A stretch of DNA of 64,000 nt from Prosthecomicrobium pneumaticum (GTDB lineage: Bacteria; Pseudomonadota; Alphaproteobacteria; Rhizobiales; Kaistiaceae): assembly GCF_014199915.1 (NCBI RefSeq), contig NZ_JACHOO010000008.1:124001-188000 (forward strand), written 5' to 3'. Positions 43,745 to 58,855 of this stretch are shown here, piece after piece. Position 1 is the first letter of the stretch. Each line of letters opens with the position of its first letter. The position numbers and the translations under genes are program-made. The notes under the pieces were generated by a model. That model worked only from the letters and a program-made list of their open reading frames with translations, had not been told where the DNA came from and searched no databases.

Positions 43745-44542
43745 GTGGCCAAGGCGGGCGGTCCGGAGACGGGTGCGGGCGAACGCTTCGCCGAGCTGGC
43801 GGCGGGCGGCGAGCCCGGCACACAGCACGATTTCGGCGGCTCGCTCGACCGGCGACCGATCGCCGAGCAGGTCGCCAACCGCATCATGGGCATGATCAAG
43901 AGCGGCAATCTGCGGCCGGGCGACCGCCTGCCGACCGAACAGCAGATGGGCATCGCCTTCTCGATCAGCCGGCCGCCGCTGCGCGAGGCGCTGAAGGCGC
44001 TGACCCTGATGGGCGTGCTCGAAAGCCGCCAGGGCGGCCGCTACACCGTCACCGACCTGTCGCCGAGCCGGCTGATCGCGCCCTTCAACGTCATGCTGTC
44101 GGTGGGCGATTACGAGGTCGACGAGCATTTCGAGGCGCGCGCGGTGGTCGAGCTCGACATCGTGCGGATGTGCACGCTGCGCGCCACGCCCGAGGAGAAG
44201 CGCCGGATCGCCGTGCTCGCCGCGGACGGCCGGGCCTTCCACGAGGATCCGGTCGCCTTCCGCCTGCTCGACATCGAGTTCCACCAGGCGCTCGACGACG
44301 GCGCCCATAACCGCCTGCTCTCGACGATGGCACAGGGGCTCTACGATGTCGGGCTCGACGTGCGCCGGCTTGCGAGCACCTTCCCCGGCGTGATCGAGAC
44401 GAGCGTCGGCCAGCACATCGCGGTCGCCGACGCCGTGCTCGCCGGCGATGCCGAGGCCGCGGCGACGGCCTATCGCCGCCATCTCGAGCATGTCCGCGAC
44501 ACCACGATCCAGGCCATGACCGCGCTCAAGCGGCAGAAGTGA
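43745..44542 (+). CDS. GntR/FadR-type regulator of sugar module I
   Basis: A 265-residue GntR-family regulator. The winged helix is RPIAEQVANRIMGMIKSGNLRPGDRLPTEQQMGIAFSISRPPLREALKALTLMGVLESRQGG, and the C-terminal FCD domain (about 95-260) is helical with the ligand histidines in FHQALDD and HIAVADAV. A metal plus a sugar acid are the usual FCD ligands. The start is GTG at 43745 after GGGAGG. It is 14 bases after the lactonase gene. The nearby TTGTCAGACAA palindrome is its likely target. Confidence 0.9.
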   Translation: MAKAGGPETGAGERFAELAAGGEPGTQHDFGGSLDRRPIAEQVANRIMGMIKSGNLRPGDRLPTEQQMGIAFSISRPPLREALKALTLMGVLESRQGGRYTVTDLSPSRLIAPFNVMLSVGDYEVDEHFEARAVVELDIVRMCTLRATPEEKRRIAVLAADGRAFHEDPVAFRLLDIEFHQALDDGAHNRLLSTMAQGLYDVGLDVRRLASTFPGVIETSVGQHIAVADAVLAGDAEAAATAYRRHLEHVRDTTIQAMTALKRQK

Positions 44543-44556
44543 GTGAGGAGACGCCC

Positions 44557-44874
44557 ATGCCCGAACGGATCGCCTTCCGCATGACGCTCAATCCCGGCGA
44601 GGCCGCGGAATACGAGAAGCGCCACGACGAGATCTTCCCCGATCTGGTGGTCGCGCTCAAGGAGGCCGGCATCTCCGACTATTCGATCTGGCTCGATCCG
44701 CAGACGCACCACCTCTTCGGCATCCTGACCCGCAGCGACGACCACAAGATGGCCGAGCTGCCGCAGCAGGAAGTGATGAAGCGCTGGTGGAAGCACATGG
44801 CCGATATCATGGCAACCGACGAGAACGACGTCCCCGATCAGGTTCCCCTCCAGCGCGTGTTCTACCTCGCATGA
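44557..44874 (+). CDS. rhaM: L-rhamnose mutarotase family protein, copy I
   Basis: A 105-residue protein of the rhamnose mutarotase (DUF718) family, interconverting the anomers of a deoxysugar. RMTLNPGEAAEYEKRHDEIFPDLVVALKEAGI and the C-terminal RWWKHMADIM plus VFYLA match E. coli RhaM closely, including the histidine-bearing first helix and the tryptophans. GAGGAG precedes the ATG at 44557. It ends inside the start of the dehydratase gene with a four-base overlap, so the two are coupled in one operon. Confidence 0.92.
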   Translation: MPERIAFRMTLNPGEAAEYEKRHDEIFPDLVVALKEAGISDYSIWLDPQTHHLFGILTRSDDHKMAELPQQEVMKRWWKHMADIMATDENDVPDQVPLQRVFYLA

Positions 44875-46049
44875 GCCGTTCCTTCACGATCACCGACCTG
44901 CGCGTCTACACGGTCGGCCAGACCGCCAAGGGCGGCGACTATTTCCAGCAGAACGAAGGCCATTGGGTGATCGACAGCCTGATCGCCAATCCGATGTCGG
45001 GCTATCCGAAATATCGCGAGCGGCGGTCGAGCTGGGGGATCGGTGTGCTCGGCTCGCTGGTCGTCGAGGTCGAGACGGCCGAGGGTGTCGTCGGCGTCGC
45101 GACCGGCCATGGCGGCGTGCCGGCGGCCTGGCTGATCAAGAACCACTTCGCCCGTTTCATCGTCGGCGAGGATGCCCGCAACCTCAACAGGATCTGGGAC
45201 GAGCTCTTCCGCGCCTCCCTCCCCTATGGCCGCAAGGGCCTGCCGCTGATGGCGATCAGCGCGGTCGACCTCGCGATCTGGGACCTCGTCGGCAAGGTGC
45301 GCGAGGAGCCGGTCTATAATCTGATCGGCGGCCTGTCGCGCGACGAGATCAGCTTCTACTGCACCGGGCCGGCGCCCGACGCGGTCAAGGCGCTCGGCTT
45401 CTGGGGCGCCAAGGTGCCCCTCCCCTACAGCCATTTCGACGGCGAAGAGGGGTTGAGAAAGAACATCGAATACCTCGCCACGCAGCGCGCCCTCGTCGGC
45501 ACGGCCTATCCGCTGATGGTCGACTGCTACATGGCGCTGACCGCGCCCTATGCGATCCGGCTCGCCGAAGCGGCGAAGCATCTCGACATCTATTGGTGGG
45601 AGGAGGTGCTGGCACCGGACGACGTCGAGGGCTTCCGGCTGATCAAGCAGGCCCATCCGACGGTCAAATGGACCACCGGCGAGCACGAATATTCGCGCTA
45701 CGGCTTCCGCCGGCTGATCGAGGAGCGGACGCTCGACATCCTGCAGCCGGACGTGATGTGGGTCGGCGGACTGACCGAGCTGCTGCGGATCGCCGCGCAC
45801 GCCTCGGCTTACGACATCCCGGTGGTGCCGCACGGCAGCGGGCCGTACTCCTACCACTTCATCGCCAGCCAGACCGGCGCCGCCTTCTGCGAATATGTCG
45901 CGGCGAGCCCGGACGGACGTTCGATCCGCCCGGTGTTCGGCGATCTCTTCGTCGGCGAAGATCTGCCGAAGGAGGGGAAACTCAAGGTTTCCGCGGCCCC
46001 GGGCTTCGGCATGGAGCTCGCGACCCGCGCGACGCTGACGCCCTTCTGA
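44871..46049 (+). CDS. rhmD: L-rhamnonate dehydratase-type enolase superfamily enzyme
   Basis: A 392-residue enolase-superfamily enzyme of the L-rhamnonate dehydratase group, which converts the aldonate to 2-keto-3-deoxy acid. The long N-terminal capping region (GHWVIDSLIANPMSGYPKYRERRSSWG) is characteristic. Metal ligands are in MVDCYMA (Asp), WWEEVL (Glu) and TGEHEYSR (Glu); VVPHGSGPYSYHF carries the catalytic His. Whether the substrate is L-rhamnonate or L-fuconate cannot be settled. It is the last gene of the plus-strand operon and is followed by a hairpin. Confidence 0.9.
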   Translation: MSRSFTITDLRVYTVGQTAKGGDYFQQNEGHWVIDSLIANPMSGYPKYRERRSSWGIGVLGSLVVEVETAEGVVGVATGHGGVPAAWLIKNHFARFIVGEDARNLNRIWDELFRASLPYGRKGLPLMAISAVDLAIWDLVGKVREEPVYNLIGGLSRDEISFYCTGPAPDAVKALGFWGAKVPLPYSHFDGEEGLRKNIEYLATQRALVGTAYPLMVDCYMALTAPYAIRLAEAAKHLDIYWWEEVLAPDDVEGFRLIKQAHPTVKWTTGEHEYSRYGFRRLIEERTLDILQPDVMWVGGLTELLRIAAHASAYDIPVVPHGSGPYSYHFIASQTGAAFCEYVAASPDGRSIRPVFGDLFVGEDLPKEGKLKVSAAPGFGMELATRATLTPF

Positions 46050-46357: not shown

Positions 46358-47107
46358 TCAGGCCGGCAGACCGGCGGCACTGCGGAAGGCCGGATCGCGG
46401 ATATCGACCTCCGCCCCCACATAGGAATCCGCCCCGCCTGTGCACAGAAAGACGATCGCGGCGGCCGGCAGGCGCGGGTCGGCGAGCGACTCCCGGGGCA
46501 GCTGACTGACCGGATTGATGCCCGAGGCGCGGATCTCGACCTGCATGCCGGTGTCGACGACGCCGGGCGCGAAGCCGAAGACGCGGATTCCCTTCTCGCC
46601 ATATTCGAGGGCGATCGAGCGCGTCACCATGGCGAGCCCGGCCTTCGCCGCGCAATAGGCGCTCCAGCCTTCGAACGGCCGGTGCGCGGCACCCGAGGAG
46701 AGATTGACGATCGTGCCGCGCCCGGCGGCGAGCATGCCGGGCAGCACGGCGCGCGCGACGCTCGCCGCGCCGGACAAGGTGATGCCGACCGCCGCCGCCC
46801 ATTCCCGCGGATCCGCCTCGTGCAAGGGCCCGATCGGATGGATGACCCCGGCATTGTTGACGAGGATGGTCGCCGGCCCGAGCCGCGCCTCGGTCTCTGC
46901 GACCAGCGCGTCGACGGCATCCGGATCGGCGACGTCGCAGGCGAGCGGCAGTGCGCCCTCGATCCCCGCCGCGACGGCCTCGGCATCGGCGAGCTTGCGC
47001 GCCGAGACGACGACGCGGACGCCCGCTGCGCCGAGCGCCCGGGCGGTGTCCGCACCGATGCCGCGGCCGGCGCCGGTGACGATCGCGATCTGTCCGGAAA
47101 GGCTCAT
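46358..47107 (-). CDS. SDR oxidoreductase, sugar module II
   Basis: A 249-residue classical SDR. The cofactor loop is TGAGRGIG, the structural motif NNAGV, and catalytic Ser and Tyr-Lys are in NLSSGAAH and YCAAK. It is most likely a sugar or sugar-acid dehydrogenase, with the exact substrate unknown. Its start overlaps the mutarotase stop by one base (TGATG), and it is the last gene of a run of overlapping minus-strand genes. The ATG at 47107 is preferred over in-frame starts up to 28 codons earlier, because the fold begins at residue 3. Confidence 0.88.
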   Translation of the reverse strand: MSLSGQIAIVTGAGRGIGADTARALGAAGVRVVVSARKLADAEAVAAGIEGALPLACDVADPDAVDALVAETEARLGPATILVNNAGVIHPIGPLHEADPREWAAAVGITLSGAASVARAVLPGMLAAGRGTIVNLSSGAAHRPFEGWSAYCAAKAGLAMVTRSIALEYGEKGIRVFGFAPGVVDTGMQVEIRASGINPVSQLPRESLADPRLPAAAIVFLCTGGADSYVGAEVDIRDPAFRSAAGLPA

Positions 47108-47421
47108 CAGTCCATCCGCCATTGCAGGGGAAGCAGGAAGGGAAAGCCGCGGCTCGGATCGACCTCGATCTTCATGATCGGGCCCATCCATTCGCCCCAG
47201 CGGGCATTGACCGGATCGTCGCGAAGCGCCGCGATCGTCGCCTCGAGATCGTCGGTCTCGAAATAGCCGAAGAGCGTCAGGCCGTGCCGGAAGATGTTGT
47301 AGTTGCGGATGCCGGCCTTCGTCAGCGCCTCGACCATGTCCGGCCAGATCGCGTCGTGACGGCGCTTGTACTCGTCCTCATAGCCGGGACGGACTTCGAG
47401 CACCCAGGCGTAATGGCCCAT
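47107..47421 (-). CDS. L-rhamnose/L-fucose mutarotase family protein, copy II
   Basis: A 104-residue second member of the mutarotase (DUF718) family. VLEVRPGYEDEYKRRHDAIWPDMVEALTKAGI and RWGEWMGPIM fit the fold, but it is clearly diverged from copy I and has a different C-terminus (FPFLLPLQWRMD). It resembles the bacterial L-fucose mutarotase-like group more than RhaM. GGAGGAG lies just before the ATG at 47421. It is 11 bases after the acetoacetate-decarboxylase-family gene. Two mutarotases within 3 kb suggest two different deoxysugars. Confidence 0.88.
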   Translation of the reverse strand: MGHYAWVLEVRPGYEDEYKRRHDAIWPDMVEALTKAGIRNYNIFRHGLTLFGYFETDDLEATIAALRDDPVNARWGEWMGPIMKIEVDPSRGFPFLLPLQWRMD

Positions 47422-47432
47422 GATCTCCTCCC

Positions 47433-48221
47433 TCACTGCGCTTCGAGATAATCGTGGACGATACGGCCGGCGACGAGGGTGAAGTCGGCCCGCCAATGGA
47501 CGCCGTCGAGCATGTCGACGACCGGCAGGCGGTGCACCGGCGCCTGCGCGTTCGGCCGCAATTCCACCGTGCACGGCCCGCCCCAGCATTCGTGTACGAC
47601 CACATCGGTCAGCCGGCGCGCCGTGAGCTGCCGGATCGCCGGGCGGCCGTCGATATGGTCCGTCGCCTTGAGGTTGATGTTCTCGGCGAAGTCGAAATGC
47701 GCCTTCAGGCTGTCGAGGCCGTCGCGCCGCTGTTTGTAGGGCAGCGTGCCGGTGATGACGTCGATGCCATTCCGCGTCACCGTGCCGACGACGAGATCGC
47801 CGCGATATTCGAGCTTCGGCTCGCCGATCTTCTTCGGCTGGCCGTGAATCTCGCGGCCGTGCACGACGCCCACCTCGGAGGAGAGGAAGAGATAGGGCGA
47901 ATAGGAGCCGGCGAGGTCGGTGCCCGGCAGGCGGCAGCCGATCGACACGTTCGACTCGCCATAGGGGCCGAGCCATTCCGTGTCGTTCATCCTGTAGATG
48001 TGGGCGAGCACGACATCGCTCGTCGGCTCGAGCGGCGGCGGCAGGAGGCGTGCGACCGCCGCCTCCGTCGTCCGCCAGACGAGCGTCAGCACTTCGACAT
48101 TGCGGAAGGTGAAGGGAAAGGGCGGCACGGTCGGCGCGTCCCATGGCGTCGAGAAGCCGCCCTTCAGGATGTCGTCGACTGTCACGCCGGCGAGCCCGCC
48201 GCGGCGCAGATCCTTGCTCAT
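47433..48221 (-). CDS. Acetoacetate decarboxylase family protein, sugar module II
   Basis: A 262-residue member of the acetoacetate decarboxylase superfamily. The segment HGQPKKIGEPKLEYRGD carries the adjacent lysines expected for Schiff-base chemistry, and VWRTTEAAVARLLPPPLEP and VVVHECWGGPCTVEL fit the fold. Members do decarboxylation, and some do aldol or dehydratase chemistry on 2-keto acids. Here it probably acts on a keto-deoxy sugar acid, which is an inference. It overlaps the SDR gene by four bases, between that gene and the mutarotase gene. I know no established sugar pathway with this enzyme. Confidence 0.85.
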   Translation of the reverse strand: MSKDLRRGGLAGVTVDDILKGGFSTPWDAPTVPPFPFTFRNVEVLTLVWRTTEAAVARLLPPPLEPTSDVVLAHIYRMNDTEWLGPYGESNVSIGCRLPGTDLAGSYSPYLFLSSEVGVVHGREIHGQPKKIGEPKLEYRGDLVVGTVTRNGIDVITGTLPYKQRRDGLDSLKAHFDFAENINLKATDHIDGRPAIRQLTARRLTDVVVHECWGGPCTVELRPNAQAPVHRLPVVDMLDGVHWRADFTLVAGRIVHDYLEAQ

Positions 48222-49003
48222 GCGACCGGCTCCTTCCGCGGGGCGATGCCATAGCCGACGAAGCCACCGGTGACGTTGATCAGTTCGCCGGTGACGAAGG
48301 AGGCTTCGGGCGAGACGACATAGGCGACCGCCGCGGCGACGTCGGCCGGCCGGCACCAGCGGCCGACCGGGATCGTCTTCAGGACCTGCGCCTCGAACGC
48401 CTCCCAGGAGAGGCCGAGCTTCTGCGCCTTGTCGCGGAACTGCGCCTCCATGCCGGTGCCGGGGCCGACATGGCCGGGCGCGACGCCGTTGACCGTCACG
48501 CCATAGGAGGCGAGCTCGACCGCAAGGCACTGGGTGAGGCCCCAGACGGCGTTCTTCGAGGCGATATAGGCGCTCGAATAGGGATTGCCGAAGCCGAGCC
48601 GCGTGATGATGTTGACGATGCGGCCGCGCTCGGCCCGCATCATCGGCTTCGCCACCGCCCGGCAGGTGAGGAACGGCCCACGCGCATTGACGCGCTGGAT
48701 GCGGTCCCATTCGTCGACGCTCGTGTCGGCGACGAGCTTCTGGAGATGGATGCCGGCGCAGTTGACGAGGATGTCGATCCGGCCGTGCCTTCCGAGCACG
48801 CCGGCGATCCCCTCGTCGACCGAGCTTTCCTCGGTAACGTCGAGGGCGATCCCCTCGCCGCCGAAGGCCGCCGCGGTCGCGGCGGCCGCTCCTCCGTCGC
48901 GGTCGGCGACGACGACATGCCGCCCGTCGGCGGCGAGCCGGCGCGCGATCTCGGCGCCGATGCCGCCCGCCCCGCCGGTGACGATCGCGATCTCGCCCGT
49001 CAT
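48218..49003 (-). CDS. SDR oxidoreductase 2, sugar module II
   Basis: A 261-residue SDR. The cofactor loop is TGGAGGIG, an NCAGI replaces the usual NNAG, and Tyr-Lys are in YIASK. The catalytic-serine position reads NIITRLG, so Ser may be replaced by Thr. It is probably a sugar dehydrogenase. The ATG at 49003 overlaps the upstream isomerase stop by four bases. It is part of the module II operon, and its substrate is unknown. Confidence 0.86.
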   Translation of the reverse strand: MTGEIAIVTGGAGGIGAEIARRLAADGRHVVVADRDGGAAAATAAAFGGEGIALDVTEESSVDEGIAGVLGRHGRIDILVNCAGIHLQKLVADTSVDEWDRIQRVNARGPFLTCRAVAKPMMRAERGRIVNIITRLGFGNPYSSAYIASKNAVWGLTQCLAVELASYGVTVNGVAPGHVGPGTGMEAQFRDKAQKLGLSWEAFEAQVLKTIPVGRWCRPADVAAAVAYVVSPEASFVTGELINVTGGFVGYGIAPRKEPVA

Positions 49004-49818
49004 GCGCCCGCTCCCCATGTCCGCACCAGGTCGCGCATCCCGATCGTCTCGGTCAGGATGTCGTCGAAGAGCGAGTCCATATAGTCCTGATTGGTGTATT
49101 CGATCGCCAGACGCCCGTCATAACCGGCATCGCGCAGCGTTCCGAGCAACGCGCCGAAATTGATCGTGCCCTTGTCGAGCTTCGTCTGCAGCGCGCCGAT
49201 CTTCGCCTGGCGCAGATGGACATGCGCGGCATGCGGGGCGAGCGGATCGATCTCGTCCTGGCGCCAGCCGAGACAGACGAAATGCGCGTAATCGAGCGTG
49301 AGCTTGAGGCCGGGCACGCGGTCGAGCAGTTCGAGCACCAGCGCCGGGCTCTCGAGATAGGAATGGACGTGCGGCTCGATGGTGAGCGTCACGCCCGCTT
49401 CTCGCGCGATCGGCAGCAGGCCGGCAAGGCTCGCAGCCGACTGGTCGAGCGCGTCGCGCCGGCTCTGGCCGGGATTGACGACGCCCGGCAGCACGAAGAC
49501 CGTCGGCACGCCGGCCGCCCGGCAGAAGCGCACGACCTGACGGAAATCGGCCTCGTTCCGATCGCGGTAGCGTGGGTCGGCGAGATTGCGGTCGGCGAGC
49601 GTGTCGCCGAAGAGGTGGTAGAGATTGGGCAGGTCGACGCCGAGCGACAGCACCCGCTCCGCCGCCCTCTCCGGCTCGGCGAGCAGCGCCGCCTTGTCGA
49701 GCGCCGGGCCGAAGAAATAGCCGATGTCGAGCGCGCCGATGCCGAGTACCTTCGACAGGCCGGCCGCCTCCTCGAGCGAGCAGGCGCGCAGCGACCAGGA
49801 GGTCAGCGACAGCTTCAT
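49000..49818 (-). CDS. Sugar phosphate isomerase/epimerase-type TIM barrel
   Basis: A 272-residue xylose-isomerase-like TIM barrel. The N-terminal MKLSLTSWSLRACSLEEAAG, the metal-binding TIEPHVHSYLESPALVLELLD, LTLDYAHFV and HVHLRQAKIG are typical, and IEYTNQDYM closes the barrel. Such enzymes interconvert keto- and aldo-sugars or epimerise them. Substrate unknown. The start overlaps the Gfo/Idh gene's stop by one base. Confidence 0.88.
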   Translation of the reverse strand: MKLSLTSWSLRACSLEEAAGLSKVLGIGALDIGYFFGPALDKAALLAEPERAAERVLSLGVDLPNLYHLFGDTLADRNLADPRYRDRNEADFRQVVRFCRAAGVPTVFVLPGVVNPGQSRRDALDQSAASLAGLLPIAREAGVTLTIEPHVHSYLESPALVLELLDRVPGLKLTLDYAHFVCLGWRQDEIDPLAPHAAHVHLRQAKIGALQTKLDKGTINFGALLGTLRDAGYDGRLAIEYTNQDYMDSLFDDILTETIGMRDLVRTWGAGA

Positions 49819-50867
49819 CAGACCGCCTCCATCCGCCCGCTCTCGGCCGAGCGATACATGGCGTCGAGCACCTCGACGGCGCGCTGGCCGACGAGGCCGC
49901 AGGCCCGGTTCTCGACCGGCAGGCCGCGGCAGATGTCGATGAAGACGTTGACCGGCTCCTCGCACGCATAGCCGCCCTCGCCCGGCGCGAGCGGCACGAT
50001 GATGTCGCGGCCGTCGCGGCGGCGGATCTCGAGCCGCTCCTCCTCGGTGTTGAGCGTCATCATGCCCTCCGAGCCGAACACCCGCAGATCGATCTGCACC
50101 GAGCGGTGCTTCGGCACGGTCGAGGACCCGGACAGCGAGGCCGTCGCGCCGTTCTCGAAGCGGACGACCGCGGCGTCGTAATAGTCGACGCCCGAAGGCG
50201 AGCGGCCGACCGCGGCGAACACTTCCGCCGGGGCGAGATCGGCGATCCGGAAGAACAGGCCGAGCGCATGGACGAGCTGGCCCCAGCCATAGCCGCCGGC
50301 GCGCTTCGGGTCGGCCCAGGTCGAGGCCGGCGGCCGGAACATCGCGCCCTCGGTCTCCTGCATCGGCTTGCCCGCCATCAGATCGTCGAGCGCCGAGGCC
50401 ATCTGCAGCACGACGTGCTCGATGCGGCCGATCGCGCCCCCGGCAATCAGCCGCCGGGCCTCGTCGGTGAAGGGCTTGAAGTTCCAGCCATAGGGCACGA
50501 CGACTTGTTTGCCGGCCGCCTCCGCCGCGGCGACGATGGCGCGGGCGTCGGCCGCATTCGTCGCGAGCGGCTTCTCGACCAGCACGTGGCAGCCCTTGGC
50601 GAGCGCGGCGAGCGCATGTTCGTGATGGTTGACGTGCGGCGAGGCGATGATCACGCCGTCGAGCCGAACCTTCGCCAGCATCTCGGTATAGTCCTCGAAG
50701 GCGTGCGGCACGTCGAACTCCTGCCGCACCGCCTCGAGCTCCGCGCGCCCCAGCCGGTTGACGGCCGCGAGCATCGCGTTCGGGTTCGCCTTGACGACGG
50801 GGATGTGGTTCACCACCGCCCACCAGCCGGCGCCGATCACGCCGATCCGGGCCTTCCTGTCCGTCAC
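49818..50867 (-). CDS. Gfo/Idh/MocA family oxidoreductase
   Basis: A 349-residue NAD(P)-dependent oxidoreductase. The Rossmann fold starts RIGVIGAGWWAVVNHIPVV, and VLVEKPLATNAADAR carries the EKP motif. The C-terminal domain holds GGYGWGQLVHALGLFF, with the catalytic histidine in this stretch. It likely oxidises a sugar or inositol. The start is GTG at 50867, overlapping the regulator's stop by four bases. The same regulator, isomerase and SDR neighbours indicate one pathway. Confidence 0.9.
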   Translation of the reverse strand: MTDRKARIGVIGAGWWAVVNHIPVVKANPNAMLAAVNRLGRAELEAVRQEFDVPHAFEDYTEMLAKVRLDGVIIASPHVNHHEHALAALAKGCHVLVEKPLATNAADARAIVAAAEAAGKQVVVPYGWNFKPFTDEARRLIAGGAIGRIEHVVLQMASALDDLMAGKPMQETEGAMFRPPASTWADPKRAGGYGWGQLVHALGLFFRIADLAPAEVFAAVGRSPSGVDYYDAAVVRFENGATASLSGSSTVPKHRSVQIDLRVFGSEGMMTLNTEEERLEIRRRDGRDIIVPLAPGEGGYACEEPVNVFIDICRGLPVENRACGLVGQRAVEVLDAMYRSAESGRMEAV

Positions 50868-51610
50868 CCGCTTCCTCCCTCGCCTGATCGTTGCGTCCGC
50901 TCCATCGCCTCGACGGTGGAGCGGTGGACGTTCGTCATGTGGCGTTCCATGGCCCGGCCGGCGGCCTCGGCGTCGCGCGCCTCGAGCGCGGCGACGATGA
51001 CCTCGTGGTCGGCAAAGGATTGCCCGGTGACGCCCGGCGTCTCGGCGGCGATGCGCCGGTATTCCATGCCGAGCACGTAGAGCGAGGAGGAGATCTGGAC
51101 GAGGAAGGGGTTCCCCGTCGTGTCCCAGATGACGCGATGGAACTCGGAATCCGACACCCGGAAGCCGAGCGGATCGTGGATCAGGTCGCGCTGCACGACG
51201 AGCAGCTTCTTCAGCCGCTCGAGATCGGCGGGGCCGATCTTCTCGGCCGCCATCCGGCCGATCCGCCCGTCGATCATCAGCCGCGCCTCATAGAGGGCGT
51301 CGATGTTCTCGGCGTTGAGGGTGATCAGGAATTGCAGCGGCGAGAGGAGGTCGGAGGCGTCGAGCGAGGAGACATAGACGCCGCCGCCCTGCCGGGTCTT
51401 GAGCACGCCGAGGATCTGCAGGCCGCGCAGCGCCTCGCGCACGCTCGGCCGGCTCACCTGCATGAAGGCGGCGAGTTCGCGCTCGGTCGGCAACTGGTCG
51501 CCGGGCTTGAGGTTCTTCGTCCGCACGAGGTCGAGCAACTTGCGGGCCACCTGCTCGGCCACGGAGTGCCGTTCGATCGGTGCAAACCCGCCGCCGCTCG
51601 CCATCGTCAC
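50864..51610 (-). CDS. GntR/FadR-type regulator of sugar module II
   Basis: A 248-residue GntR-family regulator. The winged helix is SVAEQVARKLLDLVRTKNLKPGDQLPTERELAAFMQVSRPSVREALRGLQILGVLKTRQGGGVYV, and the FCD domain follows (FHRVIWDTTGNPFLV near 155, HEVIVAALEARD near 210). GTG at 51610 or ATG at 51604 could be the start; the GTG is better placed to GGAG. It overlaps the Gfo/Idh gene by four bases and lies four bases after the permease gene ends. Its target is probably the palindrome at 55654-55670. Confidence 0.9.
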   Translation of the reverse strand: MTMASGGGFAPIERHSVAEQVARKLLDLVRTKNLKPGDQLPTERELAAFMQVSRPSVREALRGLQILGVLKTRQGGGVYVSSLDASDLLSPLQFLITLNAENIDALYEARLMIDGRIGRMAAEKIGPADLERLKKLLVVQRDLIHDPLGFRVSDSEFHRVIWDTTGNPFLVQISSSLYVLGMEYRRIAAETPGVTGQSFADHEVIVAALEARDAEAAGRAMERHMTNVHRSTVEAMERTQRSGEGGSG

Positions 51611-51614
51611 GATG

Positions 51615-52607
51615 TCAATCTCCGAGCGCGCGCGAGCGGATCTGGTCGAGGCTCACCGCGAGCATCAGCACGACGCCGCGCGTCACATCCTGCCAGAAGC
51701 TCGACACGTTCATCAGCGTCAAGCCGTTGTTGAGCGTGCCGAGGATGAGGATGGCGAGCAGCGTGCCCCAGACGCTGCCGCGTCCGCCATTGAGGCTCGT
51801 ACCGCCGAGAATGATCGCCGCGATGACGGTGAGGAGGTGCTGGCCGGCGGAGTTCGGCGCCGCCGCGCCGAGCATCGCCGCGAGCACGATGCCGGCGACG
51901 GCGCCCGACAGCGCCGAGACGATATAGAGCGTGACGACGGTGCGCTCGACCGGGATGCCGATCAGCCGCGCGGCTTCCGCATTGCCACCCGAGGCATAGA
52001 CATGCCGGCCGAAGCGGGTGCGCGTCAGCACGAGCCAGAGCCCGAGAAAGGTGACGAGCATCAGGATCAAGGGCAGCGGCACGCCGAAGACCCGGCCCTG
52101 GCCGATGACGTTGAAGCCCGGCACCATCAGCGGCCGCGTCAGGCCGCCCGTCATGACGAGCGCGAGGCCCGAGACGATGCTCATCATGCCGAGCGTGACG
52201 ATCAGCGGATTGAGCTTCAGCCTTGTGGTGAAGAGGCCGTTGATCCAGCCGATCGCCGCGGCGACGAAGACGGCGACCGCCACGGCGAGCCAGATGTCGA
52301 GCCCCTGCATGTGGAGGAGCGAGATCACCACGCCGGTCAGCCCGGCGATCGCCGCGACGGAGAGGTCAAGCCCGCCGGCGATGATCAGCGGCGTGCCGGT
52401 CGCCGCCATCAGGCCGATGAAGGCGACGTTCGAGCCGATCGACAGCATGTTGCGCACGCTGAGGAAGAAGGGCGACAGCACCGAGAACACGACGACGAGG
52501 CCGATATAGAAGACGAGCAGCACGGCGACGCCCGACCAGGGGCGGCCGAGAAGGCTCGTCATCCGCCGGCGGGTGGCCGAGATCGTGGCGGGCGTGGCGG
52601 TGGCCAT
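51615..52607 (-). CDS. Sugar ABC permease, sugar module II
   Basis: A 330-residue RbsC-type inner-membrane permease. LIIAGGLDLSVAAIAGLTGVV, GWINGLFTTRLKLNPLIVTLGMMSIVSGLALVMTGG and the coupling loop FGRHVYASGGNAEAARLIGI are family features, and eight or more hydrophobic segments are visible. Unlike module I there is one permease, so it presumably forms a homodimer. It lies nine bases after the ATPase gene. Confidence 0.92.
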   Translation of the reverse strand: MATATPATISATRRRMTSLLGRPWSGVAVLLVFYIGLVVVFSVLSPFFLSVRNMLSIGSNVAFIGLMAATGTPLIIAGGLDLSVAAIAGLTGVVISLLHMQGLDIWLAVAVAVFVAAAIGWINGLFTTRLKLNPLIVTLGMMSIVSGLALVMTGGLTRPLMVPGFNVIGQGRVFGVPLPLILMLVTFLGLWLVLTRTRFGRHVYASGGNAEAARLIGIPVERTVVTLYIVSALSGAVAGIVLAAMLGAAAPNSAGQHLLTVIAAIILGGTSLNGGRGSVWGTLLAILILGTLNNGLTLMNVSSFWQDVTRGVVLMLAVSLDQIRSRALGD

Positions 52608-52616
52608 GGTCGTTCC

Positions 52617-54140
52617 TCAGGCAGCGTGAAAGGCGGGGTCGGCGCTGGTCGCGGCCATCAGTTGCGCCGGCGTGGCGCCGCGCCCGAAGCGGCCGACGAC
52701 GCGGCCACGGTCGAGCACGAGGGCACGGTCGCCGAGGCCGGCGACCTCCTCGACATCGGAAGAGAGCACGAGCACGGCGAAGCCGCGGTCGGCGAGATCG
52801 CGCAGCTTGCCGTAGATCTCCTTGCGGGCGCCGACATCGACGCCGCGCGTCGGCTCCTCGAGGATCAGGAGTTCGACGCCCTCGACCAGCCAGCGGGCGA
52901 TGCAGACCTTCTGCTGATTGCCGCCGGACAGGGTGCGGATGCGCTGCTCCGGGCCGCGCGTGCGGATGCCGAGCCCGTCGATCCATTTCTTCGCGTGGCT
53001 CGTCTCGGCACTCTTCGAGACGAAGAGGCCGCGCTCGAAGCGCTCCTGGAAGGAGAGCGCGATGTTCTCCCGCACGGTGAGGTCGGCGATGATGCCTTCC
53101 TTCTTCCGCTCCGCGGCGACAAAGCCGATGCCGGAGCGCTTGCCGGCGACCGGCGAGGCCGGCCGGTATTCCCGCCCGCCGAGCCGGATGCGGCCGGCCT
53201 TCATCGGCCCGAGCGCGCCATAGATCGCCCGGCCGAGCACCTCGATGCCCGACCCGACCAGGCCGAACACGCCGAGAATCTCGCCGGCCCGGATCGAGAA
53301 GCCGATATCGTCGAGCTTGCCGGGAAGCGACAGCGCCTCGACCGACAGGATCTCCTCGCCCTTCGCCGCTCCACCCTCGGCATAGAGGTCGCCGACCGTA
53401 TTGCCGAGCATGGCGGCGAGCACGTCGGCATGGTTCGTTTCGGCCGTGCGGAAGGTGCCGGCATTCCTGCCGTCGCGCAGCACGGCGATGCGGTCGGAGA
53501 TCTCGAAGACCTCCGAGAGATAATGCGAGATGTAGACGACGGAGACCGACTGCGCCTTCAGCCGGCGGATGATCCTGAAGATCAGCGTCGCCTCCTGCTC
53601 GGTCAGGGCGGCGGTCGGCTCGTCCATGATCAGGATGCGGGCCTGGCCGGCGAGCGCGCGGGCGATCTCGACGATGCGCTGCTCGGCGACGGACAGGCGC
53701 TTCATCACCGTATCCGGGTCGATCGCGCCGAAGCCGAGCTGGTCGAGCAGCTCGCGCGAGCGCCGACGCATCGCCGCGTCGTCGACCGAGCGGAAGAGGA
53801 GGCCCTTCTTCAGGGGCAGGTCGCCGGCGAAGATGTTCTCGGCCACCGTCATATCGGGCATCACCGAGATCTCCTGCGGCAGCAGGCGGACGCCGGCGGC
53901 GACCGCGGCGCTCGGCGCGGCGAAATCGACCGTCTCGCCGTCGACCGCGATCGTTCCCGCATCACGGCCGTAGAGCCCGGTCAGGATCTTCATCAGCGTC
54001 GACTTGCCGGCGCCGTTCGAGCCGAGCAGGGCGACGACCTCGCCGGCCTCGACGGTGAAATCGACGCCGGAAAGCACGGGCACGCCCCCGAAGGACTTTC
54101 CGATCCCCTGCATGTGCAGGCGCGGCGCGGCGGTCGGCAT
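52617..54140 (-). CDS. Sugar ABC ATPase, sugar module II
   Basis: A 507-residue RbsA-type tandem ATPase. Domain 1 has GSNGAGKST and LSVAEQRIVEIARAL; domain 2 has a degenerate Walker A (GLVGSGIEV) but LSGGNQQKVCIARWL and LLILEEPTRGVD, where Walker B Asp is replaced by Glu (LEEP). That D to E change is in the second domain and is unusual. The ATG at 54140 opens straight into the first fold. It powers the importer for the module II substrate. Confidence 0.91.
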   Translation of the reverse strand: MPTAAPRLHMQGIGKSFGGVPVLSGVDFTVEAGEVVALLGSNGAGKSTLMKILTGLYGRDAGTIAVDGETVDFAAPSAAVAAGVRLLPQEISVMPDMTVAENIFAGDLPLKKGLLFRSVDDAAMRRRSRELLDQLGFGAIDPDTVMKRLSVAEQRIVEIARALAGQARILIMDEPTAALTEQEATLIFRIIRRLKAQSVSVVYISHYLSEVFEISDRIAVLRDGRNAGTFRTAETNHADVLAAMLGNTVGDLYAEGGAAKGEEILSVEALSLPGKLDDIGFSIRAGEILGVFGLVGSGIEVLGRAIYGALGPMKAGRIRLGGREYRPASPVAGKRSGIGFVAAERKKEGIIADLTVRENIALSFQERFERGLFVSKSAETSHAKKWIDGLGIRTRGPEQRIRTLSGGNQQKVCIARWLVEGVELLILEEPTRGVDVGARKEIYGKLRDLADRGFAVLVLSSDVEEVAGLGDRALVLDRGRVVGRFGRGATPAQLMAATSADPAFHAA

Positions 54141-54205
54141 GGCGGGCCTCGACTAAGGGAAAGGGAGGTCGGCGGGGAGGAGCGCCCTCCCCGCCGCACG
54201 GTCGA

Positions 54206-55405
54206 TCAGTTCGACGGGATCAGGTTCTCGAAGCCCTTCAGCTCCGGCGACTGGCGCAGCGCCGCGAGATGCTCCTGGAACTTCGCGTCGGGGAACTGGA
54301 AGTCGATCCCCTTGTCGTCGGCGCATTTGAAGTTCGAATAGAACTCGCAGACATTGCCCTTCGTCACGATGACGTGGTTGACGAGCACGGTCGAGGGCGT
54401 CTCCTTGCCGGCGAGCTGGGCGAGCGCGAGCGGCAGCAGATAGTTGCCGTAGCGCTCGGGGAAGTAGCCGACCGAGGCGACGAAGGTCGGCTCGTCCATC
54501 ATGGTCTGGATCTCGTCGGCTCCCATGCCGACGACGACGAGGTCCGCCTCGCGGCCGGCCTGCTTGACGGCGCGCAGCATGCCGGTCGCCGACTGGTCGT
54601 TGATCGCCGTCACCATGATCGGAACGCCGGCCGGGATGCGGCCGAGCACGTTCGTCATCTGGGTGAAGCTCTCCTCGAGCACGTTCTTCGTGTCGATCTT
54701 GATGACGTGATCCGGGCTGAAGCCCTCGACGGCCGCGAGGAAGCCCTCGACCTGGCCGCCGGTGCGCATTGCCGGGATCGCGCCCGACTGCGGCAGCTCG
54801 CCGACGACGAAATAGCCTTCCTTGACCTTGTCGGCGCCGAACTTCGCGATCGCCGCCTGGCCGAGATAGGCACCGCCCATATAGCCGGAGCGGGGATTGT
54901 TGGCGCCGAAGAAGGTGGCGCCCGGCATCGGGATGTCGATCGCCGTCACCTTGGTGCTGGCGTCGTTCATCTGCTGCATGATCGTCGCGCCGAAATTGGC
55001 GTCGGTCTGGAATTCGATCACGTAGTCGACATTGCGCTGCAGGAAGCTCTGCGCGTTGGCGAGCGCGGTGGCGCCGTCGAGCCGGTTGTCGGCGATGACG
55101 AGCTCGACGCCGGCCGCCTCGGCATTCGCCTTCAGGCCTTCCTCGACCTTCAGGCAGAAGGAGACGTCGCGCTGCAGATTGGCGAAGCCGATGACGAGCT
55201 TCTCGCCATTGCGCGGCTTCGACACCGAGGCGGCCTCGGCGACCATCGCCTTGAGGTTCTCGGCGCTGATCATCGAGCCGTCATGGCCCGACAGGTTGAA
55301 GCCGTGGAAATCCTGCGCCTGGGCGGCGGTGCCCAGAAGCAGGGCGAAGGTCGCCGCCGCGGCGCCGCGCGCCAGCGGGCGCAGAGTGTGCTCGAGACGA
55401 GTCAT
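54206..55405 (-). CDS. Sugar ABC substrate-binding protein, sugar module II
   Basis: A 399-residue periplasmic binding protein. A signal peptide covers about residues 1-31 (FALLLGTAAQAQ), then a 40-residue extension precedes the conserved start KLVIGFANLQRDVSFCLKVEEGLKANAEAAG. Cysteines near FCLKVEE and at NVCEFYSNFKCADD could form disulfides. GGAGGAAG precedes the ATG at 55405. It is the first gene of the minus-strand module II operon, whose promoter lies in the 361-base divergent gap. Confidence 0.9.
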   Translation of the reverse strand: MTRLEHTLRPLARGAAAATFALLLGTAAQAQDFHGFNLSGHDGSMISAENLKAMVAEAASVSKPRNGEKLVIGFANLQRDVSFCLKVEEGLKANAEAAGVELVIADNRLDGATALANAQSFLQRNVDYVIEFQTDANFGATIMQQMNDASTKVTAIDIPMPGATFFGANNPRSGYMGGAYLGQAAIAKFGADKVKEGYFVVGELPQSGAIPAMRTGGQVEGFLAAVEGFSPDHVIKIDTKNVLEESFTQMTNVLGRIPAGVPIMVTAINDQSATGMLRAVKQAGREADLVVVGMGADEIQTMMDEPTFVASVGYFPERYGNYLLPLALAQLAGKETPSTVLVNHVIVTKGNVCEFYSNFKCADDKGIDFQFPDAKFQEHLAALRQSPELKGFENLIPSN

Positions 55406-55766
55406 TGGTCCGTCTTCCTCCCTCTTGTGGGCCGGTCGGCCCCTTTTCGGCCGCACCGCCGCGAGGCTCGCGGGCGGCGGCGGCCGGATGATCCTCAAGC
55501 GAACGTCGGCGGACGGAACCGGGTGAGACCTCGGAACGGCGCATCGCAGCCGCCCTCGACAGGCCGGCGGCGCGGCGATCCCCTCTCCTCCCCCGGCGCC
55601 GTCGCGACGGCCGCCTTCCTCATTTCCTCGGCGCCGGTCGGCTCTTCTTGAAAAATTGGCCAGACCAATTATGCGCGTTGTCACCATAATCAGCCTCGCC
55701 TAGCTTGCCAAGAGCTCCGCGCCGAAATCGGCGAGCGACCGAGGACGCCGGAGGAGGAACCGCCCG
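55406..55766. other. Divergent intergenic region, sugar module II
   Basis: This 361-base gap separates the oppositely oriented binding-protein and dehydratase genes. It holds one clear operator-like palindrome (55654-55670) in its right half and a moderate -35-like TTGAAA right before that palindrome. The GC-rich left half shows no motif I can support. Confidence 0.7.
55654..55670. promoter_or_regulatory. Candidate FadR-type operator of sugar module II
   Basis: AATTGGCCAGACCAATT is a 17-base palindrome centred on A55662 with one mismatch (C against A in the inner arm). It has the one-base-centre GNC-A-GAC layout of the module I site, but with TTGG in place of TTGT. It lies in the divergent gap, and the module encodes its own FadR-type regulator at 50864-51610. 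Confidence 0.65.
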
Positions 55767-56891
55767 ATGCGCATCACGAACGCCACCTGCCATGTGCTGA
55801 AATGGCCGGAACCCAATGATTTCGGCCATGACCGGATGACCGTCCTGGTCCGGCTCGATACCGACGCCGGCATCCATGGCTGGGGCGAGGCGATCGCCAT
55901 GTGGCCGGAGGCCTGCAAGGCGACGGTGGCGATCGTCGAGGACGGCATCGCGCCCGTTCTCGCCGGCCGCGACCCGCGCGATCCCGAGGCCTGCTGGCAG
56001 GCGATGAAGGCGCACAGCTGGTGGTATGGCGAGGGCGGTATCGCGGCGCTCGCCATCTCGGCGCTCGACATGGCGATCTGGGACATCGCCGCGAAGGAGG
56101 CCGGCAAGCCGCTCGTCGCGCTTCTCGGCGGCGCGGCGCACGCGGCGCTCCCCGCCTGCGCGAGCCTCCACGTCAACCAGCCGACCATCGAGGATTCGGT
56201 CCGCGAGATCGCCGGACACATCGCCGCCGGCTTCCGTTCGACGAAGCTCGGCCTCGGCAAGCGCGGCCTGTCGAGGGCCGGCCGCGACCCGGATTACGAC
56301 GTCGCGCTCGTCGCGGCGCTGCGCGAAGCGATCGGCCCGCAGGCCGGCATCATGGTCGATGCCGGCAACGGCACGAAATGGGATCGCGAGACGGCGATCC
56401 GCACGGTCCGGCGCATGGAGGAATCGCATATCGCGTGGATCGAAGAGCCCTTCCATCCGAGCGCGGTCGCCGACCACGTCGCGCTCGAGGCCGCGGTCGC
56501 GACGCCGATCGCCGCCGGCGAGCGCGAATGGCAGGCGGCCGGCTACGAGCGCTGGCTCGCCACCGGCGCGGTCGACGTGTTCGGCATCGATCCCGCCCGT
56601 GTCGAGGGCGTCACCGGCTTTCGCCGCGCCGCCGCGGCGATCGAGGCGGCGGGCAAGACCGTCAACGCCCATGCCTGGAGCACCGCCGTCCTGACCGCGG
56701 CGAGCCTCCATCTCTCGCTCGCCTCCCCGGGCGCGGAGCTCTTCGAGCTGAAGCCGCTGCCCGGACCGATGCAGTTCGACCTCGTCGAGACGCCGTTCTG
56801 GCACGACAATGGCCTCGTCACCGCGCCGGATCGCCCGGGCCATGGCGCCGAGCCGATCCCGGCCGTCCTCGAACGCTACCGCGCCGGCTGA
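55767..56891 (+). CDS. Enolase superfamily dehydratase/racemase, sugar module II
   Basis: A 374-residue mandelate-racemase-type enzyme. Metal ligands fit Asp198 (MVDAGNG), Glu226 or Glu227 (WIEEPF) and Glu252 (AGERE). Lys160 (STKLGLGK) is the probable catalytic base; the second lysine of a KxK motif is replaced by Gly. The C-terminal histidine is in NAHAWST. It is most likely an acid-sugar dehydratase, substrate unknown. It heads the plus-strand arm of module II, with the SGNH hydrolase gene following 11 bases later. Confidence 0.88.
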   Translation: MRITNATCHVLKWPEPNDFGHDRMTVLVRLDTDAGIHGWGEAIAMWPEACKATVAIVEDGIAPVLAGRDPRDPEACWQAMKAHSWWYGEGGIAALAISALDMAIWDIAAKEAGKPLVALLGGAAHAALPACASLHVNQPTIEDSVREIAGHIAAGFRSTKLGLGKRGLSRAGRDPDYDVALVAALREAIGPQAGIMVDAGNGTKWDRETAIRTVRRMEESHIAWIEEPFHPSAVADHVALEAAVATPIAAGEREWQAAGYERWLATGAVDVFGIDPARVEGVTGFRRAAAAIEAAGKTVNAHAWSTAVLTAASLHLSLASPGAELFELKPLPGPMQFDLVETPFWHDNGLVTAPDRPGHGAEPIPAVLERYRAG

Positions 56892-56902
56892 AGGAGGCTG
56901 CG

Positions 56903-57550
56903 ATGAAGACGATCGTCTGCTACGGCGATTCGAACACATGGGGTGCCGAGCCGCAGCCCTTCCGCGGCGCCGGCGGCCGTTTCGGGCCGAGCGTGCGCTG
57001 GCCCGGCGTGCTGCGCGCCCGGCTCGGCGAGGGGTTCGCCGTGATCGAGGAGGGCCTCAACGGCCGCACCACATGCGTCGACGATCCGGTCGAGGGCGCG
57101 CACAAGAATGGCGCGCGCTTCCTGCCGGTCTGCCTCGAAACGCACATGCCGCTCGACCTCTTGATCGTGAAGCTCGGCACCAACGACCTGAAGGCGCGCC
57201 TCTCGATGCAGGCCTGCGACATCGCCGCCGGCGCCGGCCTCCTTGCCGACACCGCGCTCCGCTCGGCCACCGGACCCGACGGCCGTCCGCCCAAGGTGCT
57301 CATCGTCGCGCCGGCGCCGCTCGCCCGGCTCGGCTGGCTCGCCGAAATGTTCGAGGGCGGCACGGCGAAGTCGCACCGCCTCGCCGCCGAGATGGCGGTG
57401 GTCGCGGCGGAGCGCGGCGTCGCCTTCTTCGACGCAGGCACAGTGATCGCCTCGAGCGAAGGCGACGGCATCCATCTCGACGGTGCCGCGCATCAGACGC
57501 TCGGCGAGGCGCTCGCGGAGACCGTCCGGAGCCTCTTCGCCGGCCCCTAG
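56903..57550 (+). CDS. SGNH/GDSL hydrolase
   Basis: A 215-residue esterase-type hydrolase. The block I serine motif is CYGDSNTWG, block III LGTNDLK, and block V DGIHLDGAAH. There is no signal peptide, so it acts in the cytoplasm. It would remove an acyl group from a sugar or act as a lactonase-like esterase on the pathway. AAGGAGG lies close before the ATG at 56903. The gene follows the dehydratase by 11 bases and ends 186 bases before the alcohol dehydrogenase gene. Confidence 0.88.
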   Translation: MKTIVCYGDSNTWGAEPQPFRGAGGRFGPSVRWPGVLRARLGEGFAVIEEGLNGRTTCVDDPVEGAHKNGARFLPVCLETHMPLDLLIVKLGTNDLKARLSMQACDIAAGAGLLADTALRSATGPDGRPPKVLIVAPAPLARLGWLAEMFEGGTAKSHRLAAEMAVVAAERGVAFFDAGTVIASSEGDGIHLDGAAHQTLGEALAETVRSLFAGP

Positions 57551-57592: not shown

Positions 57593-57711
57593 CAAGTTGA
57601 TAAATCGGATGGGACCGGCCGCCCGCCGGACCTTGTGGATCAGCCTTGGACCGCATGGAGATAGCCGTTGCGCCCCGTGCGCGCGGCTCTATAACAAGTT
57701 ATCAACTTGTT
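57593..57711. promoter_or_regulatory. Paired operator-like elements before iron alcohol dehydrogenase
   Basis: AACAAGTTATCAACTTGTT (57693-57711) is a perfect palindrome with 8-base arms around ATC, 25 bases before the gene start. TTATCAACTTG inside it (57699-57709) recurs in reverse orientation at 57593-57603. The two copies are about 106 bases apart, close to ten helical turns. This fits a repressor binding two sites, but the regulator is unknown. Confidence 0.6.
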
Positions 57712-57736
57712 GGCTCTCCGCAGCCCGGGAACGATC

Positions 57737-58855
57737 ATGGCAGACCTCCTTCCTCCGATCTCGATCGTCCGGCCCCCCGTCATCGAGATCGGCGCCGGAT
57801 CGCTCGCCAAGGTCGGGTCCTTCGCCGCGGCGCGCGGCGGCACGACGCTGGTGGTCGCCGACGCCTTCAATGCCGGGCGGGTGGATCGCCTCGGCCTCGC
57901 CGGCCCGGTCGTCGTGTTCGGCACGGTGAAGCCGGAGCCGGACATCCCCAATCTCGAGCAGCTCGTCGCGCTCGCCGACAGGGTGCGGCCCTCGGTGGTG
58001 ATCGGCTTCGGCGGCGGCAGCGCGATGGACCTCGCGAAGCTCGCCGTCGTGCTCACGGGCAGCGGCCTCGATGTGCGCGGCATCGCCGGCGTCGGCAAGG
58101 CGCCGGAGCGGAGTGCCGCCCTCGTCCAGGTGCCGACCACGGCCGGCACGGGCAGCGAGGCGGGCATCCGCGCGCTCGTCACCGATCCGGCGACGCGCAA
58201 CAAGGTCGCCGTCGAAAGCCGGTCGATGCTCGCCGATCTCGCCGTGCTCGATCCGGAACTGACCTTCAGCGTGCCGCCCGCGGTGACGGCGGCGACGGGC
58301 GTCGACGCGCTCGCGCACTGCGTCGAGGCCTTCACGAGCCGCCGTGCCCATCCGCTGATCGACGTCTACGCGCTCGAAGGCATCCGCCTCGTCGGGCGTT
58401 TCCTCAAACGCGCCGTCACGGACGGCGACGACGTCGCGGCGCGCACCGGGCTCGCGGTCGCCTCGCTCTATGGCGGCTTCTGCCTCGGCCCGGTCAACAC
58501 CACCGCCGGCCATGCGGTCTCCTATCCGCTCGGCACCCGCCACGGCATCCCGCACGGGCTCGCCAATGCGCTGATCTTCCCGCATGTGCTCGCCTTCAAC
58601 GCACCGGCAGTGCCCGAGAAGACCGCGCTCGTGCTCGAGGCGCTCGGCGTGCCGGATGGTAAGTCGGTGTTCGACGGCGCCTATCGCTTCTGCGAGCGGC
58701 TCGGCATCGACATGCGCCTCTCCGCGGCCGGGGTGCCGGCCGACGATCTCGATGCGATGGCGGCCGAAGCGCACGCCATCCGCCGCCTGCTCGACTTCAA
58801 CCCGCGAGATATCGGCAAGGACGAGATCCGCGCGCTCTATCAGGCGGCCTATTGA
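57737..58855 (+). CDS. Iron-containing alcohol dehydrogenase
   Basis: A 372-residue group III dehydrogenase. The NAD-binding loop is GGGSAMDLAK, and the metal histidines are in GVDALAHCVEA and AVSYPLGTRHGIPHGLAN. It resembles lactaldehyde reductases, maleylacetate reductases and similar enzymes. In this context it could reduce a lactaldehyde-type product of deoxysugar breakdown. The ATG at 57737 follows GGGAA. It has its own promoter region with a palindromic operator, so it may be regulated separately from the module II operon. Confidence 0.88.
   Translation: MADLLPPISIVRPPVIEIGAGSLAKVGSFAAARGGTTLVVADAFNAGRVDRLGLAGPVVVFGTVKPEPDIPNLEQLVALADRVRPSVVIGFGGGSAMDLAKLAVVLTGSGLDVRGIAGVGKAPERSAALVQVPTTAGTGSEAGIRALVTDPATRNKVAVESRSMLADLAVLDPELTFSVPPAVTAATGVDALAHCVEAFTSRRAHPLIDVYALEGIRLVGRFLKRAVTDGDDVAARTGLAVASLYGGFCLGPVNTTAGHAVSYPLGTRHGIPHGLANALIFPHVLAFNAPAVPEKTALVLEALGVPDGKSVFDGAYRFCERLGIDMRLSAAGVPADDLDAMAAEAHAIRRLLDFNPRDIGKDEIRALYQAAY

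Follow-up and report, generated by a model that had tools for sequence, protein, structure and literature searches.

What a protein of the acetoacetate decarboxylase (ADC) family does in a sugar-type operon was the question raised by a locus on contig 8 (NZ_JACHOO010000008.1) of Prosthecomicrobium pneumaticum (genome, 4.65 Mb), a member of the family Kaistiaceae, which appears also to include Kaistia and Bauldia. The stretch analyzed, referred to here as the window, comprises 64,000 nucleotides (positions 124,001 to 188,000 of the contig); coordinates given without a locus name are those of the window. The unit under study consists of 10 minus-strand genes (46358-55405) and 2 plus-strand genes (55767-57550). 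It codes for the ADC protein, a RhaM-family mutarotase, two short-chain dehydrogenases (SDR_A and SDR_B), a TIM-barrel isomerase, a Gfo/Idh/MocA oxidoreductase (Gfo), a FadR-type regulator, an ABC importer, an enolase-superfamily enzyme (MR2) and an SGNH hydrolase (Table 1). Our leading, still tentative, reading is that the unit is an operon, under the control of its FadR-type regulator, for the breakdown of an uncommon aldose (probably a 6-deoxy-L-sugar or something closely similar), and that the ADC protein works on a 2-keto-3-deoxy sugar acid as an aldolase or dehydratase that forms a Schiff base.

The ADC protein was matched by the Pfam ADC domain at 196.4 bits (cut-off, 29.8 bits). Its residues K130 and K131, the PKK lysines seen in an earlier reading made from the sequence alone (the sequence-only reading), are equivalent to K115 and K116 of the Clostridium enzyme, and the pair was kept, together with E76, in 49/49 ADC sequences. 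Active-site roles are presumed here for K115/K116, E76, R29 and E61. The position of E61 was occupied by His in all 49 orthologs and that of R29 by V, A, I, M, T or C, never by R; H126, Q128, N91 and Y76 (numbering of the window protein) were invariant and W83 nearly so. Paralogs from the order were sampled (20 of 65 non-orthologous matches, chiefly the top-ranked): 11 kept K115, all 11 with R29, E61 and E76, and His was found at position 61 in none of the 20. Because R29 and E61 are absent from 49/49 orthologs and are kept in three solved ADCs and in every lysine-bearing paralog of the sample, the ADC protein is, on the evidence of its residues, probably not an acetoacetate decarboxylase. Two plasmid records give the product the plain name acetoacetate decarboxylase; this public name of the relatives sits badly with their own active-site residues, and finding the pathway would set right the annotation of the whole subfamily. 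The nine remaining paralogs of the sample (L085, L087-L089, L095, L097, L098, L100 and L102) lack the Schiff-base lysine and are likely to carry out another reaction or no catalysis.

The orthologs were not recovered as monophyletic in a 72-sequence tree under either midpoint or distant-paralog rooting. In the part of the tree that was drawn, one branch arising among the orthologs carried the three solved ADCs along with the 11 paralogs that have the lysine, so that monophyly of the orthologs is not supported; the nine paralogs without the lysine are very distant and may distort the topology.

An AlphaFold model of the ADC protein was obtained with an alignment of 43 of the 49 sequences (L004, L008, L009, L013, L018 and L049 were left out). 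The predicted local distance difference test score (pLDDT) was 85 and the predicted template modeling score (pTM) 0.85; residues 123-128, preceding the lysines, were below 50. The best fold match was 3bgt (Z 28.3, 228 residues, 2.1 Å), followed by Swit_4259 (Z 24.6), a Streptomyces bingchenggensis protein titled aldolase-dehydratase (24.4) and MppR (23.7). With the acetoacetate decarboxylases of Clostridium acetobutylicum (3bh2), Chromobacterium violaceum (3bgt) and Legionella (3c8w) the protein shares the fold, 30-37% identity, K115/K116 and E76; it departs from them in the replacement of R29 and E61, in its sugar operon context and in having His, Gln and Asn as invariant residues close to the lysine motif.

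With the ADC-fold aldolase-dehydratases Sbi_00515 (6eej, 4zbt) and MppR (4jm3) it shares the fold, and their PDB titles record lysine Schiff-base chemistry: the S. bingchenggensis aldolase-dehydratase in a Schiff-base complex with pyruvate, and MppR bound either to pyruvate or to the product of a pyruvate-aldehyde condensation. In a single low-scoring profile alignment (18.8 bits), Sbi_00515 likewise lacked Arg where ADC has R29 (it had Gly, next to a gap) and Glu where ADC has E61 (it had Phe), with PKK and an E76-type glutamate kept. Identity to this group is only about 20%, and the MppR/enduracididine model TIGR04460 gave 27.2 bits (cut-off, 380). MppR is described as an aldolase in PMC7820114. 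The settings also differ: MppR comes from enduracididine biosynthesis, the ADC protein from a sugar-type operon.

In the route proposed, the ABC importer would take up the sugar and the mutarotase would provide the anomer required. Gfo and the TIM barrel would convert the sugar to a sugar acid or lactone, which MR2 would dehydrate to a 2-keto-3-deoxy acid. K130 of the ADC-fold enzyme could then form a Schiff base with the 2-keto group, leading to C3-C4 retro-aldol cleavage with release of pyruvate, or to removal of the 4-hydroxyl. Further oxidation or reduction would fall to SDR_A and SDR_B (at most other loci, a D-2-hydroxyacid dehydrogenase), and the regulator, sitting on the palindrome at 55654, would keep the two transcription units repressed until it binds an intermediate.

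An aldolase or dehydratase is favored because a dehydratase of the enolase type would yield a 2-keto-3-deoxy acid and because ADC-fold relatives with apparently changed R29/E61 act on 2-keto acids. The ADC protein is also the only member of the unit from a family known for C-C chemistry. The Pfam scan took in ten unit proteins, the permease and ATPase being identified by translation of their open reading frames (ORFs); no aldolase, sugar kinase, glycosidase, lactonase or FAH family was matched among the ten, and no aldolase was recognized by eye in the compact version of the unit in genome G067. MR2 is probably either a dehydratase of sugar acids or a cycloisomerase; as a dehydratase it would provide a substrate of the fitting kind. 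Its residues K160, D198, E226/E227, E252, D275 and H302 were found in 34/34 aligned sequences and presumably represent metal and base sites; 15 NCBIfam families were matched, none of them a sugar-acid dehydratase equivalog above cut-off (best, galactonate dehydratase, 145.1 vs 311 bits). The mutarotase was matched by Pfam rhaM (87.4 bits; cut-off, 23.4) and was below the cut-off of the L-rhamnose mutarotase equivalog TIGR02625 (62.4 vs 99.6 bits), with H22 present in 38/38 sequences. For SDR_A no PDB relative was found at E ≤ 1e-36.

Generalized to its relatives, and with the same reserve, the ADC-fold protein may stand for a new class of sugar-acid lyase, with extra histidines around the lysine, in an apparently undescribed aldose pathway found across Alphaproteobacteria and Advenella. 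It could, by way of a Schiff base, carry out, though we would not yet wager on it, the C-C cleavage or dehydration step performed elsewhere by DHDPS-, HpcH- or FAH-type enzymes. All parts come from known families; what is new is their combination and the changed ADC residues.

A single scan with the ADC protein as query recovered orthologs of 62-90% identity from 48 loci of the genome collection. They occur in Kaistia, Bauldia, Rhodobacterales (Rhodobacter, Cypionkella, Rubellimicrobium and others), Shinella, Roseibium, two Advenella (a betaproteobacterium) and other relatives. Genes for the regulator were found near ADC at 39 of these loci, SDR_A and Gfo at 38 each, RhaM at 37, the TIM barrel at 34 and MR2 at 33. 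Identity and coverage thresholds for these counts were set by the analyst, and as 19 of the 48 loci are shorter than 20.7 kb, absences there may reflect incomplete sequence.

Among 297 genomes of the order, an ADC ortholog (at least 65% identity) was present in 20, all other matches being at most 41% identical. The TIM barrel was found in 15 genomes, MR2 in 17 and Gfo (at least 48% identity) in 17, in each case only within the ADC-bearing 20; RhaM was found in 16, of which 15 bear ADC, and lies on a separate contig in G087. Hypergeometric P values for co-occurrence ranged from 6e-25 to 4e-20 with kinship ignored; for Gfo, five genomes without an ADC ortholog that held weaker matches (36-43%) were set aside. 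Pairwise distances of ADC correlated with those of Gfo (0.89) and of the TIM barrel (0.87), kinship being included in these values. The sequence-only reading had named, as grounds for giving up a joint pathway, an ADC gene moving independently of the others; in most genomes this is not so, the exceptions being three genomes and five loci.

The three genomes are G092, G004 and G055, of one genus, in which ADC was kept and the TIM barrel, Gfo, RhaM and MR2 were below the cut-offs; the regulator, SDR_A and a D-2-hydroxyacid dehydrogenase closely accompany ADC there. In G004 the ADC gene had been skipped by the gene caller and was located by protein scan. Besides ADC and SDRs, this reduced version (L069, L070 and L071) contains the 2-hydroxyacid dehydrogenase, distantly related MR-type enzymes and the palindrome of the unit; it adjoins genes that read like a polar-amino-acid-type ABC importer and perhaps serves a different substrate. 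At the five loci (L014, L017, L026, L032 and L035, the first and last incomplete) Gfo, the TIM barrel and RhaM were all not seen; four of the five carry MR2 and four the 2-hydroxyacid dehydrogenase. Two of them are the Advenella clusters (L032 and L035), with no mutarotase, Gfo or TIM barrel nearby and, in L032, a sugar-type MFS transporter beside the cluster, which is suggestive of horizontal transfer and of the import of a sugar acid instead of a sugar. The regulator, SDR_A and ADC form the most widely shared part, yet no gene attends ADC everywhere; Gfo, the TIM barrel, RhaM and the importer seem to make up a part that deals with the sugar itself and that some loci do without.

SDR_B was found at 8/48 loci and a CtBP-like D-2-hydroxyacid dehydrogenase at 30/48, the two together at one (L048); four of the 29 longest loci had neither. 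In 80 genomes tested, the D-2-hydroxyacid dehydrogenase was present in 11 of the 20 that bear ADC and in 0 of the 60 others. No close copy was found in the P. pneumaticum genome, where the best match was 36% identical.

Several observations weigh against an aldolase or dehydratase. The ADC protein stands nearer to the true ADCs, with 36-37% identity and Z 28, than to the aldolase-dehydratases, with about 20% and Z 24. An FAH-family hydrolase occurs at 12/48 loci and the copy scanned was near the didehydro-deoxy-L-rhamnonate hydrolase model, so that C-C cleavage could be the task of that enzyme. No aldehyde dehydrogenase was found in the unit, and Gfo, the TIM barrel and the 2-hydroxyacid dehydrogenase are without a firm role in the model. 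Loci L005, L006, L010 and L011, at which Gfo, ADC and RhaM are present and MR2 and the TIM barrel were not found nearby, fit poorly; in G015 and G261, two genomes with MR2-less ADC loci, MR2 relatives of 46-47% lie elsewhere in the genome. Finally, we infer the chemistry in its entirety.

The overall closeness to true ADCs fits a less likely scheme, in which the ADC protein is a beta-keto acid decarboxylase: a sugar acid would be oxidized at C3 by SDR_A or Gfo and CO2 lost, giving a ketose one carbon shorter. In a variant of this scheme, oxidation would take place at C2 and the TIM barrel would shift the 2-oxo to the 3-oxo acid, like 2-oxo-tetronate isomerase. The SDR_A gene accompanies ADC even at loci without Gfo and the TIM barrel, and an SDR paired with ADC resembles the oxidation of a 3-hydroxy acid followed by decarboxylation. 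The sole NCBIfam matches of the TIM barrel were to hydroxypyruvate isomerase (26.0 vs 353 bits) and 2-oxo-tetronate isomerase (20.0 vs 325 bits), both far below cut-off. The logic of the variant, isomerization by a TIM barrel and then decarboxylation, is that of the threonate/erythronate route; there, 2-oxo-tetronate isomerase works with 3-oxo-tetronate 4-phosphate decarboxylase, which belongs to another family and acts on a phosphate, and the 20 bits of the TIM barrel set it apart from the isomerase. Both forms of the scheme are opposed by the absence of R29 and E61 from all 49 orthologs and their retention in the solved ADCs and 11/11 lysine-bearing paralogs. No sugar kinase family was matched in the unit, and MR2 would have no obvious role. 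Furthermore, SDR_A was not found nearby at 10/48 loci, 4 of them among the 29 longest. An SDR_A match was present in 19/20 ADC-bearing genomes and in 10/60 without an ADC ortholog, and SDR_A was rejected as a discriminator as too widespread.

It is improbable, though worth setting out, that SDR_A oxidizes the 2-keto-3-deoxy acid at C4 and that the resulting 2,4-diketo acid is cleaved, by the ADC protein here or by FAH elsewhere, to pyruvate and a 2-hydroxy acid, which the 2-hydroxyacid dehydrogenase would go on to oxidize. Oxidation at C4 occurs in the known non-phosphorylating L-rhamnose and L-fucose routes. Where an FAH gene is present (12/48 loci), it directly follows that for the 2-hydroxyacid dehydrogenase in L026, L040, L045 and the Chelativorans cluster; the L045 protein scored 422 bits (cut-off, 500) with the 2,4-didehydro-3-deoxy-L-rhamnonate hydrolase model, and one FAH is encoded on another contig of P. 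pneumaticum. However, ADC is present at all 12 FAH loci, so that the two are not simple alternatives. FAH relatives were found in 20/20 ADC-bearing and 42/60 other genomes (80 searched); their presence says little, and FAH as a discriminator decided nothing.

Slightly less probable still, Gfo and the TIM barrel might strip a glycoside, ether or ester from the sugar by a 3-keto route, with the ADC protein assisting through a Schiff base on the 3-keto sugar and the remainder being ordinary deoxy-sugar catabolism. DgpA-type enzymes remove sugar substituents by such a route, and DgpA and glucuronide 3-dehydrogenase were among the PDB matches of Gfo. An SGNH hydrolase in Kaistia/Bauldia-type clusters, and a sulfatase and a formylglycine-generating enzyme adjoining the Chelativorans cluster, would suit this scheme. 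Against it, several loci have ADC without Gfo and the TIM barrel, and no glycosidase family was matched in the unit. That the ADC gene is a passenger, or a housekeeping decarboxylase in an ordinary sugar operon, as the product name in the two plasmid records would have it, is very unlikely because ADC is co-inherited with the unit genes, and the distance correlations with Gfo and the TIM barrel (kinship included) and the fixed residue changes also speak against it.

The regulation of the unit was examined through a palindrome, AATTGGCCAGACCAATT (55654-55670), situated between the two divergent transcription units. It is apparently of the FadR-box type (FadR/PdhR-type consensus). In shuffled versions of the whole window, matches with at most 2 mismatches averaged 0.17, and 4/100 shuffles reached 2, the two strands of the palindrome being scored as two matches. 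The exact core ATTGGN5CCAAT was found as 30 sites at 25/48 loci, compared with a mean of 1.4 and a maximum of 4 in 20 Markov simulations. Twenty-nine of the 30 (24 loci) precede the gene for SDR_A, MR2, ADC or the binding protein by no more than 500 bases, and one is intragenic; the exact core was not found at the remaining 23/48 loci. The same motif was seen in the versions of G092, G055, G004, G067 and G205 and on a Shinella plasmid, and not in those of G100 or Chelativorans. The palindrome is predicted to be the operator of the FadR-type regulator of the cluster, and the presence of a conserved palindrome common to the unit promoters agrees with the earlier proposal of a single regulated unit.

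As to the substrate, our best guess is a 6-deoxy-L-sugar or one closely analogous to it. Module I (36196-46049), which adjoins the unit, looks like an L-rhamnose non-phosphorylating cluster: it contains an L-rhamnose mutarotase (44566-44868; 104.9 bits with TIGR02625, over the 99.6-bit cut-off) and an L-rhamnonate dehydratase (44871-46049), each above the threshold of its equivalog model. The P. pneumaticum genome has five genes for RhaM-family mutarotases that pass the Pfam cut-off (contigs C2, C4, C5 and C8). At four Rhodobacter loci an SDR lies next to the unit, and the one scanned was over the L-fucose dehydrogenase cut-off. A Shinella plasmid carries, within 13 kb, a fuconolactonase-like gene (228.8 vs 400 bits), a mutarotase and an aldo/keto reductase, and the binding protein of its version is RhaS-like, under cut-off (291.9 vs 342 bits). 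Naming the substrate through PDB relatives of the window binding protein was abandoned, with just four ribose-type or similar proteins found (E 3e-12 to 6e-9). The Chelativorans cluster (L082, 20659-28232) is directly followed by a sulfatase-like gene, a formylglycine-generating enzyme gene and sugar ABC genes, a hint at a sulfated sugar.

The unit resembles the non-phosphorylating L-rhamnose and L-fucose pathways in its mutarotase, enolase-type enzyme, SDRs and ABC importer, in FAH at 12/48 loci and, for the L-fucose pathway, in the L-fucose dehydrogenase relative at the Rhodobacter loci. It differs in that no lactonase or FAH was matched in the window unit and in the addition of ADC, the TIM barrel and Gfo. 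Among the matches listed from the open-access literature no description of the gene set was found, which is weak evidence of absence and accords with the sequence-only reading; in a paper on a sulfofucose pathway (PMC12421959), the word acetoacetate occurs 0 times in the main text. The conserved operon, predicted operator, importer and defined enzyme set offer a direct way to a new sugar pathway and perhaps to a new reaction of the ADC fold.

The features of the unit are listed in Table 1. The enzyme families and the two plus-strand genes were as given in the sequence-only reading. Its nine mostly overlapping minus-strand genes had to be revised to ten, with overlaps of 1-4 bases at 5/9 junctions and spacings of 9-65 bases at the other four. 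The start of the SGNH hydrolase gene was placed at 56903 after checking, the Pfam scan having used the ORF from 56912; the enzyme possibly removes an acyl group from the sugar.

Table 1. Features of the unit in the window, with the evidence for each.
Feature	Coordinates	Strand	Evidence
SDR_A, short-chain dehydrogenase	46358-47107	-	Pfam adh_short 177.7 bits; at 38/48 loci; YCxxK motif conserved
RhaM-family sugar mutarotase, diverged from L-rhamnose mutarotase proper	47107-47421	-	Pfam rhaM 87.4 bits; 37/48 loci
ADC-fold enzyme	47433-48221	-	Pfam ADC 196.4 bits; AlphaFold model; fold match; residue patterns in 49/49 sequences
SDR_B, second short-chain dehydrogenase	48218-49003	-	Pfam; at 8/48 loci
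AP_endonuc_2 TIM-barrel isomerase/epimerase	49000-49818	-	Pfam 92.9 bits; 34/48 loci
Gfo/Idh/MocA oxidoreductase	49818-50867	-	Pfam; 38/48 loci
FadR-type (GntR/FCD) regulator	50864-51604	-	Pfam GntR and FCD; 39/48 loci
ABC permease, ribose-type sugar importer	51615-52607	-	Named from ORF translation; homologs in Kaistia/Bauldia loci
ABC ATPase of importer	52617-54140	-	Named from ORF translation; homologs
Periplasmic sugar-binding protein	54206-55405	-	Pfam Peripla_BP_4 92 bits
17-bp palindrome AATTGGCCAGACCAATT, predicted operator of FadR-type regulator	55654-55670		Divergent promoter region
MR2, enolase-superfamily enzyme	55767-56891	+	Pfam MR_MLE_C/N; 33/48 loci
SGNH/GDSL hydrolase	56903-57550	+	Pfam Lipase_GDSL_2 63.3 bits; 8/48 loci, all Kaistia or Bauldia

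Downstream of the unit an iron-containing alcohol dehydrogenase is encoded (57707-58855, plus strand), which scored below the cut-offs of all 13 NCBIfam models matched, including lactaldehyde reductase. A protein of about 350-380 amino acids recurred at L043 (13076-15644), L044 (3520-4605) and L017 (14042-15082). The L044 copy gave no Pfam match, and in L043 the protein is followed by a weak arabinose-isomerase-like protein.

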